Shown here piece by piece: positions 41,176 through 44,408 of a stretch of 53,097 nucleotides of DNA. A model generated the notes under the pieces. It was not told the origin of the DNA. It saw only the letters and a list, made by a program, of their open reading frames with translations, and made no database searches. Position 1 is the stretch's first letter, and each line of letters starts with the position of its first letter. The stretch covers positions 1 through 53,097 of the forward strand of contig JACPNN010000006.1 of the NCBI GenBank assembly GCA_016185435.1, given 5' to 3'. This DNA is from Candidatus Aenigmatarchaeota archaeon. GTDB taxonomy: Archaea; Aenigmatarchaeota; Aenigmatarchaeia; QMZP01. The translations under genes were made by a program, and so were the position numbers.

Positions 41176-41739
41176 TTATTTGAGCTCCCATTTTTTGCCA
41201 TTAACCACTGCCTGAACTGATGTTATGTTCCCCTGGAAAGTTATGCCTGTTCCGTCTATGGCTGCTGTGCCGGCAAAGCCTTTCATGGCAAGATTGCCGC
41301 TATCGGCTTTTATTTGCCTCTCAATATCGAAAGCGGCATCGGAGACCTTCAGGTCAGAAATGTAGAGGTGTGTGATCTGAAGGGGTTTGGAAAGGGGAAT
41401 TGTAATTCTAAGCTGGTTCTGGGAGGATTGAAGCTCGATTGAGGATTTGGGGAAACTGATGTTTATCTGCCCGTTGAAATTTTCGGCCGAAAAGTCCTCG
41501 GATGATATATTGACTGCTGAAAGCGGTCGGAAGCCGAGGGACTGATGATAAATAGATATTGTTATTGGTGTCTGGCTGCTCTGCGGTTTTGTGAACAGGC
41601 CTGTGAGCGTATCGGAACCTATCCAGTTGCTGAAGCCTGAGGATATGTCCGAGAATATCTCTCCCAGGCCTCCGACAAATATCAGTGACAGAAGAGCAAA
41701 AGCTACAAAGCTAGCAGCCAGAATGCGCCAGTCAAGCAT
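41176..41739 (-). CDS. Membrane-anchored protein of unknown function
   Basis: A 187-residue protein with one N-terminal hydrophobic helix (about residues 5-26) and an exported beta-rich remainder (ITISIYHQSLGFRPL, GQINISFPKSSIELQ, TFQGNITSVQAVVNG). No known domain is recognised. It shares a 37-base divergent promoter region with the CBS protein gene; an AT-rich box near 41765 suits a leaderless start. Confidence 0.55.
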   Translation of the reverse strand: MLDWRILAASFVAFALLSLIFVGGLGEIFSDISSGFSNWIGSDTLTGLFTKPQSSQTPITISIYHQSLGFRPLSAVNISSEDFSAENFNGQINISFPKSSIELQSSQNQLRITIPLSKPLQITHLYISDLKVSDAAFDIERQIKADSGNLAMKGFAGTAAIDGTGITFQGNITSVQAVVNGKKWELK

Positions 41740-43386: not shown

Positions 43387-43434
43387 ATGCCCAGATGCTC
43401 CCGTAGCTCAGTAGGATAGAGCGGCTGCCTCCTA

Positions 43435-43459
43435 TGGTTGCATATGGCAATTGCGGGAA
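43435..43459 (+). other. tRNA-Arg intron 1 (anticodon loop, 37/38)
   Basis: A 25-base intron at the canonical position. TTGC (43438-43441) pairs with GCAA (43447-43450) to form the intron hairpin. The bulge-helix-bulge is relaxed: three of four central pairs form (positions 43429-43431 with 43455-43457). Bulges T-A/T and A-A/A place the cuts as given. Confidence 0.75.
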
Positions 43460-43481
43460 AGCAGTAGGCCGTGGGTTCGAT

Positions 43482-43612
43482 TACAGGCTTTCTTTCCAAA
43501 AGAAAGCCCGTACGGCAAAGAAAGGGATTACAGATGCCGTATGTATTCAGAGGGGTGTAGACCCGTAGAGGGGATACATCCCCTCTGGGGAAAGAAAGGG
43601 GTGTGCTGAAAA
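43482..43612 (+). other. tRNA-Arg intron 2 (T loop, 59/60), 131 bases
   Basis: A long non-canonical intron. A four-pair central helix forms between TTCG (43476-43479) and TGAA (43607-43610), flanked by three-base bulges ATT and AAT, which sets the splice sites. Inside are three hairpins: GGCTTTCTTT/AAAGAAAGCC (43486-43508), TACGGC/GCCGTA and AGAGGGGAT/ATCCCCTCT. No homing endonuclease or other coding region fits. Confidence 0.75.
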
Positions 43613-43655
43613 TCCCACCGGGAGCGTTTTTAAGGAGGGAGGCAATAGTTTGTAT

Positions 43656-44408
43656 ATGTCCAGAATTATAGCGATGGCAAGCGGCAAGGGCGGGGTGGGA
43701 AAAACGACACTCTGCGCCAGCATTGCCGCTGCCCTTGCTCAGTTCGGGAAATCCGTCATTGTGATTGACACAAACCTGACGACTGCCAATCTGGGGCTTC
43801 ATCTGGGCATGCCCTTTTACCCTGTCACCCTTCAGGATGTGCTCAAGAAAAGGGCAAGATTGAAGGATGCAATATATTACCACAATGCCGGTTTTGGCAT
43901 CATACCTGCAAGCATATCTGTCGAGCATGTGATGGTGCCGAAACAGAACGACATAATTGATGCTGCATATAAGGCCGCCTCTCTTGCGGATATCGTTCTC
44001 CTTGACAGCGCTGCCGGGCTGGGAAGAGAGGCCTCAGCTGCTTTGCAGGCTGCAGATGAGGTGCTAATTGTCACGAACCCTGAAATGCCGGCCATTACAG
44101 ATGCGCTAAAGCTTTCGAAGATTGCCCAGCAGTATGAAGTGAGGAGATTGGGCTACATCCTGAACCGTGTCAGGATGGAGAAGCACGAAATAAGCCGCAG
44201 GGAAATCCAGGAATTGCTGGAGCTGCCGTTTTTCGGCATAGTGCAGGAAGACAGAAGGGTGAAAGAGGCTATTGCGGCGCGAATGCCTGTTGTGCTCCAT
44301 CGGCCAAGGGCAAAAGTGTCAAGGCAGATTAAGGCTGTTGCGGCAAGGCTCGCGAATATGCAGTACAAGGAGACCCTGTCTGACATGTTTTTTGGCTGGT
44401 TCAGGTAA
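43656..44408 (+). CDS. minD: MinD/ParA-family ATPase
   Basis: A 250-residue deviant Walker A ATPase: SGKGGVGKTT near residue 9, VIDTNLTTANLG for the A' motif and LLDSAAGLG for Walker B. It keeps the GYILNRV and LPFFGIVQED segments of archaeal MinD proteins, which position cell division or surface machinery. The C-terminus ends in an amphipathic FFGWFR that may touch the membrane. ATG 43656 is preferred to TTG 43650. Confidence 0.9.
   Translation: MSRIIAMASGKGGVGKTTLCASIAAALAQFGKSVIVIDTNLTTANLGLHLGMPFYPVTLQDVLKKRARLKDAIYYHNAGFGIIPASISVEHVMVPKQNDIIDAAYKAASLADIVLLDSAAGLGREASAALQAADEVLIVTNPEMPAITDALKLSKIAQQYEVRRLGYILNRVRMEKHEISRREIQELLELPFFGIVQEDRRVKEAIAARMPVVLHRPRAKVSRQIKAVAARLANMQYKETLSDMFFGWFR

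Follow-up and report, generated by a model that had tools for sequence, protein, structure and literature searches.

The window analyzed here, a 53,097-nt stretch of DNA from a Candidatus Aenigmatarchaeota archaeon, harbors a tRNA-Arg(CCT) gene (43397-43626, plus strand) that is interrupted by 131 nt within its T loop. This arrangement raises the questions of whether such a gene can still yield a working tRNA and from where the insert in the T loop may have originated.

The twice-split tRNA-Arg(CCT) gene

On the plus strand, exon 1 (nt 1-37 with the anticodon CCT, 43397-43434) is followed by a 25-nt intron at 37/38 (intron 1, 43435-43459), exon 2 (nt 38-59, 43460-43481, with the T-loop bases TTCGAT at its 3' end), a 131-nt intron in the T loop at 59/60 (intron 2, 43482-43612) and exon 3 (T60, the 3' strand of the T stem and the 3' strand of the acceptor stem, 43613-43625), with the discriminator base at 43626. 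These boundaries come from a splice test, supplemented by the fold for intron 1, by genome search and intron comparison for intron 2 and, for exon 1, by MinD synteny in relatives. The preliminary description had proposed a gene split twice at just these sites, with removal of the insert restoring a canonical T loop, and this was borne out by ARAGORN: only the doubly spliced form (43397-43434 + 43460-43481 + 43613-43625) was called as tRNA-Arg(cct), with a perfect cloverleaf, while the unspliced gene and the gene lacking intron 1 only received no call, and removal of intron 2 only led to a spurious Ser call. Excision of both introns leaves a canonical tRNA, as is the case for archaeal bulge-helix-bulge (BHB) tRNA introns. 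The folded gene also greatly exceeded dinucleotide shuffles in stability (z -7.0), and intron 2 plus the T stem gave a z of -5.7.

In the raw window sequence, tRNA-Arg(CCT) was missed by both ARAGORN and Rfam; the Rfam scan of the window matched two other tRNAs only and no described RNA family in the intron, and the whole-genome Rfam scan returned tRNA-Arg(CCT) as a weak partial match of 18.1 bits. A gene that is missed by both programs and holds a large insert in its T loop could be a pseudogene disrupted by a repeat element, but we consider this very improbable and have rejected it, given that the exons are perfect and give the doubly spliced cloverleaf, that the BHB helix covaries between genes (see below), that a search of the mature sequence against the assembly found no second CCT gene, and that AGG is the commonest Arg codon (116/187 in ten ORFs of the window). 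At the outset, an intact CCT gene at another locus had been put forward as the finding that would overturn the split gene, and the assembly yielded none. Since no other CCT gene was found and AGG is the main Arg codon, tRNA-Arg(CCT) should be needed, and we infer that it is a working gene whose precursor would be spliced at two BHB introns.

The 59/60 site, with the T stem GTGGG/CCCAC, forms a strict BHB motif. Its 5' half (43476-43482) consists of the helix strand TTCG (43476-43479) and the bulge ATT (43480-43482), with the cut after 43481, and its 3' half (43607-43613) of TGAA (43607-43610) and the bulge AAT (43611-43613), with the cut after 43612; the four-pair central helix, including one G-U pair, and the two three-base bulges are as originally described. 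The predicted exon join runs from ...GTGGGTTCGAT to TCCCACCGGGAGC, and a register shifted by 1 nt (intron at 43483-43613) gives the identical spliced product. The fold of the 37/38 site shows a relaxed BHB, with a UCCU/GGGA helix and bulges of 1 and 2 nt. When cut sites were set by one rule across all 21 genes with T-loop introns (see below), the helix partner began with T (TGAA, TGAC or TGGA) in 10/10 genes with TTCA exons; among genes with TTCG exons, seven had a partner beginning with C, three with A and one with T, CGAA being the usual one. By a hypergeometric count of C vs. T, the chance of all seven C falling among the eight TTCG genes is 8/31824, or about 2.5e-4. Because the helix covaries with the exon in 21 genes, these data support the 59/60 helix as a splicing signal independently of tRNA-Arg(CCT). 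As an intron, the 59/60 insert is real and of a known kind.

In the assembly (a 1.35 Mb draft in 23 contigs, 95% complete), the one PF01974 match lies in a 402-aa ORF, an EndA that aligns nearly full length with the ARMAN-2 epsilon2 EndA (4fz2, E 1.7e-92) and has kept the Tyr-Lys of the ARMAN-specific loop (ASL), a feature tied to broad substrate use (PMC12397907). In both organisms, a single three-unit EndA with this Tyr-Lys is found; a broad substrate range has been reported for the ARMAN-2 enzyme (PDB 4fz2; PMC12397907), which the host enzyme resembles in sequence. Judged by EndA only, the host would be placed near Micrarchaeota. The genome also contains one RtcB gene, so that both the endonuclease and the ligase for BHB introns are encoded. 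We postulate that the single epsilon2-type EndA most likely cuts out both introns, with RtcB joining the exons. The rtcB gene (L238; C9:72538-73878 in G000, the genome of the window, minus strand) itself carries an in-frame insert of 30 nt that includes a TAA stop, interrupts the metal motif (CMPDGH, then ISGTVFQKG and the stop, then WGYGFPIGG) and folds like a BHB intron, albeit a putative one; synthesis of the ligase may itself require that its mRNA be spliced. Elsewhere in the family, rtcB has one in-frame TAG in G003 and is split in pieces in G011, G013 and G014.

Downstream of the tRNA gene and outside the intron lies a conserved neighbor, a MinD/ParA-type ATPase gene (43650-44408, plus strand), and the tRNA-Arg(CCT)-MinD pair recurs within the family and beyond. 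As judged by eye, the orthologous tRNA-Arg(CCT) has a T-loop intron in seven family genomes (G002, with about 200 nt, G005, G006, G007, G008, G009 and G023) and lacks it in G004, G012, G013, G014 and G018. A search for the intron in related genomes, as the preliminary description had recommended, met with success for its position, in the seven orthologues, and not for its sequence: among 24 family genomes searched with the 131-nt intron, strong matches were found only in the window's own genome. By these comparisons, the intron position is common to the relatives and the intron sequence is not. Upstream of the tRNA gene, the opposite strand encodes a lamin-tail domain protein (PF00932, 42318-43223, minus) and a small protein with no Pfam match (41176-41739, minus).

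A repeat family in tRNA T loops

Copies of intron 2 with 80-91% identity over nearly the full length, together with many partial copies, occur in its own genome, and most of those viewed with their flanks lie in tRNA T loops. In an intron-aware scan, a T-loop intron of 80-391 nt was present in 21/31 high-confidence tRNA genes and absent from the other 10, a count to be taken as a lower bound and not as a full census given that the scan comprised targeted stretches of about 148 kb with its own score cut; three further genes with T-loop introns (regions C14:6624, C8:27245 and C4:78255) were seen by eye only. Long multi-hairpin T-loop introns, initially thought to be uncommon, are accordingly the majority state among the genes scanned in this genome. 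All 21 introns contain the hairpin module M1 discussed below, which in nearly all of them starts a few bases from the splice site, and the longer introns are built from shared blocks joined in tandem.

The introns resemble each other more than do the tRNAs that carry them. Those of Arg-CCT and Thr-TGT are 91% identical over 128 nt, as compared with 71% for the exons, and those of Thr-TGT and Gln-TTG are 97% identical over 130 nt; across different tRNA genes, intron copies are 80-97% identical and exons differ more. Near-identical introns are found, in other words, in tRNAs whose exons are no recent duplicates, as with the transposed introns of Thermoproteales. The earlier suggestion that the hairpins of intron 2 might mark a recent insertion can be retained with regard to insertion; a recent event unique to this gene has to be rejected, since many copies are present in its own genome and the repeat modules recur elsewhere in it. 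The family also occupies other tRNA intron sites, rRNA genes and sites between genes. Taken together, the T-loop introns resemble copies that a small mobile element has left as it spread.

Inserts are also present outside T loops. The 16S rRNA gene has inserts of about 97, 163 and 98 nt (L192, C2 of the window's genome), and 16S/23S inserts with modules of the M1 type lie on C2 near 40.2-40.6k, 44.3k, 55.8k and 56.3k. The 16S gene is broken into pieces on the minus strand (L192, G000:C2:40001-60000), and because three ORFs with LAGLIDADG_3 domains intervene between the pieces, large introns with homing endonucleases are likely there. A second type of intron resides in D loops, in Arg-TCT (C13:17904) and Leu-CAA (C16:69044) of the window's genome and in G004 (L207), with CCTTTTC..GTG ... 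AAAGCGTTCACGGAAAAGG shared by different genera of the class.

A covariance model (R1) built on the hairpin and the purine strand downstream of it gave about 40 strong matches in the own genome and weaker matches in 17 other genomes of the class. Among the R1 matches inspected, L210 (f10), L215 (f6) and L217 (f16) were T-loop introns with a matching pair of pyrimidine and purine strands, L208 and L216 were located just downstream of tRNA genes, and L214 looked like chance. Another T-loop intron, L038 (f9), with the pair TTCTTTCT/AAGAAAGA, was found via exon similarity and not via R1.

The Y-R'-R module

In intron 2, module M1 comprises three strands on the plus strand: Y (TTTCTTTCC, 43489-43497), which forms the 5' arm and loop of hairpin H1 (43486-43508); R' (43498-43508), the 3' arm of H1 and antiparallel complement of Y; and R (AAAGAAAGG, 43517-43525), the parallel complement of Y. 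By direct reading and by fold, a stem H2 (CGTACGGC / GCCGTATG, 43509-43543) encloses R and a conserved ATTACAGA. Further downstream, fold and genome search identified a second module, M2 (43548-43587), a hairpin CAGAGGGGTGTA...TACATCCCCTCTG that is found again in other copies.

Y/R pairs in T-loop introns include, besides TTTCTTTCC/AAAGAAAGG, the pairs TTTTCTTCC/AAAAGAAGG, TCTTTTTCC/AGAAAAAGG and TTCTTTTCC/AAGAAAAGG. The parallel match between Y and R is 8/8 in 25/28 modules with short linkers, covering several Y types, and 7/7 in one more. Distinct matching Y/R pairs numbered 10 vs. a shuffled mean of 3.3, and 17/100000 shuffles reached 10, in a comparison that took all hairpins with a downstream purine run, that is conservative in keeping antisense hairpins and in which related copies are not independent. 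Between the Arg-CCT and Thr-TGT introns, 6 of the 13 differences in 131 nt amount to one C:G.G layer displaced by a single position in all three of Y, R' and R (43492/43493, 43501/43502 and 43520/43521), and 2 more constitute a C-G to T-A swap at 43484/43510. Antiparallel pairing of R with Y was rejected, since for each Y type that discriminates between the two orientations the parallel match was the better one. Y and R' thus make up the hairpin, to which R is added as the parallel complement of Y, and the trio is kept by co-change; we surmise that it probably folds as a three-stranded unit. Counting against such a unit, the RNA minimum-energy fold of the Arg-CCT copy pairs Y with the tract at 43587-43597 and not with R'; pairing of Y with this distant purine tract (43587-43601) was itself dismissed, as the tract is unchanged in Thr-TGT where Y, R' and R change.

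M1 has the order of class II triplex motifs (ITxF, TM-ECO; PMC4666352), with Y, R' and a third purine strand on one strand, a stem of 8-10 nt (within the 6-15 nt of that motif) and a short first loop. It differs from them in being A/T-rich, in its second loop, which is about 8 nt here and longer in other copies (about 8-11 nt, or with an inserted hairpin) as compared with the 1-6 nt of the published search, and in its location in archaeal tRNA introns, the ITxF and TM-ECO motifs being bacterial. Class II purine-motif intrastrand triplexes are reported to be frequent in bacterial genomes and to form in DNA, not in RNA (Holder et al., PMC4666352), and for this reason DNA may be where the third strand acts, or it may have another meaning altogether. 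One such meaning would be that the parallel match reflects a mirror-image pair of protein-binding sites or is a by-product of copying within the family. Many modules are indeed close copies of one another, and the reported failure of these triplexes to form in RNA also fits; nevertheless, we regard this explanation as rather unlikely, because a matching R accompanies each of several Y types, changes at single positions in one strand have their counterpart in the other, and the match persists in other genera despite different linkers.

Spread and origin of the T-loop introns

Outside T loops, six copies have direct repeats of 14-42 bp on either side, two or more of them abutting the element exactly, as in MITEs. 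These are a 53-bp element between perfect, abutting 42-bp repeats (C9:4059-4111), an element with 14-bp repeats (C9:3943-4018), one between abutting 33-bp repeats of a tRNA 3' part (C4:67490-67635), one with 18-bp repeats (C22), one with 16-bp repeats (C17:143723-143934) and one with 36-bp repeats that are 86% identical (C17:33.6k). At G000:C9:3929-4153 (L223), a gene (MKYTIVAPVGDNI...) has two tandem elements at its 5' end, each after a copy of the gene start, and the gene stays intact because the 42-bp repeat carries the start codon. Based on the direct repeats flanking copies outside T loops, the family looks mobile. T-loop copies tested in the same way had no comparable repeat at the element ends; in intron 2, GATTACAG was tried as a target duplication around M1 (43479-43486 and 43526-43533) and was taken as chance, its 5' copy being absent in other members. 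Of the possible movers searched, reverse transcriptase (RVT_1) and Y1 transposase (Y1_Tnp) were not found in the genome and were rejected as such.

Our preferred reading, to which we assign a probability of roughly 0.8, is that tRNA-Arg(CCT) is a working gene with two introns and that its T-loop intron belongs to a non-autonomous dispersed repeat with a three-strand core, which would have spread at the DNA level to most T loops at 59/60. The spread most likely entailed target duplication, and the T loop would be a tolerated insertion site because splicing takes out the insert. A target duplication is missing from T-loop copies and the YGAAAA end from copies elsewhere, and the BHB ends may for this reason belong to older short T-loop introns into which the element was inserted. 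The main rival on origin accordingly holds that short 59/60 introns are old in the class and that the element was inserted later, merely lengthening them, with separate origins for the two. We place this close to, though a little under, an even chance: orthologues in G023, G007, G008 and G009 have short T-loop introns at the same place with no similarity to the repeat, and the missing YGAAAA end points the same way, but the M1 hairpin begins only a few bases from the splice site in nearly every one of the 21 introns and the modules recur in T-loop introns from other families of this class, indicating that element and site are closely tied.

Alternatively, the conserved T arm may have been a site of gene conversion or recombination, through which the introns would have spread instead of by transposition. 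Such a mechanism would account well for 21 genes with an intron at one position adjoining the conserved GGTTCRA box and for near-identical introns across different specificities, and large-scale tRNA intron transposition is described for Thermoproteales (Fujishima 2010, as cited in PMC4090602). It is, on balance, improbable in our view as the six outside copies with flanking direct repeats require insertion without T-arm homology. Going beyond the preferred reading of a dispersed repeat, one could envision a new class of mobile intron in which the three-stranded (Y:R'.R) fold would help the element to spread or to be excised; the element would insert with long target duplications and would survive in T loops via removal by the endonuclease. 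This remains tentative, and we would not favor it at present.

Close parallels are found among other intron-rich archaea. In Thermoproteales, tRNA intron transposition and non-canonical BHB introns have been described (Sugahara 2008; Fujishima 2010, as cited in PMC4090602 and PMC4033280), and both groups have multiple introns at non-canonical sites in many of their tRNA genes, with relaxed or strict BHB, and similar introns in tRNAs of different specificity. The present case, in contrast, concerns another lineage, with introns of 80-391 nt that have conserved modules and are concentrated at 59/60, and with the same repeat also between genes along with target duplications. Atabeyarchaeia and Freyarchaeia are alike in being intron-rich, with introns in >90% of tRNA genes, often at non-canonical positions, and an origin from a repeat element is not described in the excerpted text of that report (PMC11291895). 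Like MITE-type non-autonomous elements, the copies are short, dispersed and hairpin-forming with direct-repeat flanks, but here the repeats are long and variable (14-42 bp), copies serve as introns and no RVT_1/Y1_Tnp partner was found. In the literature searched, we found no description of a genome-wide family combining a co-varying three-strand module with target duplications outside T loops.

The gain and multiplication of archaeal tRNA introns has been argued for years, with no element caught in the act. Having the same repeat as a tRNA intron and, outside T loops, with target duplications makes intron gain by insertion directly testable, and introns derived from a repeat element provide a concrete model for the multiplication of archaeal tRNA introns. 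The co-varying parallel strand, for its part, offers a rare sign of selection on a three-stranded fold, and one that can be checked. Should the third strand act in RNA, a purine-motif RNA triple helix would exist in nature, although this kind of fold is considered unable to form.
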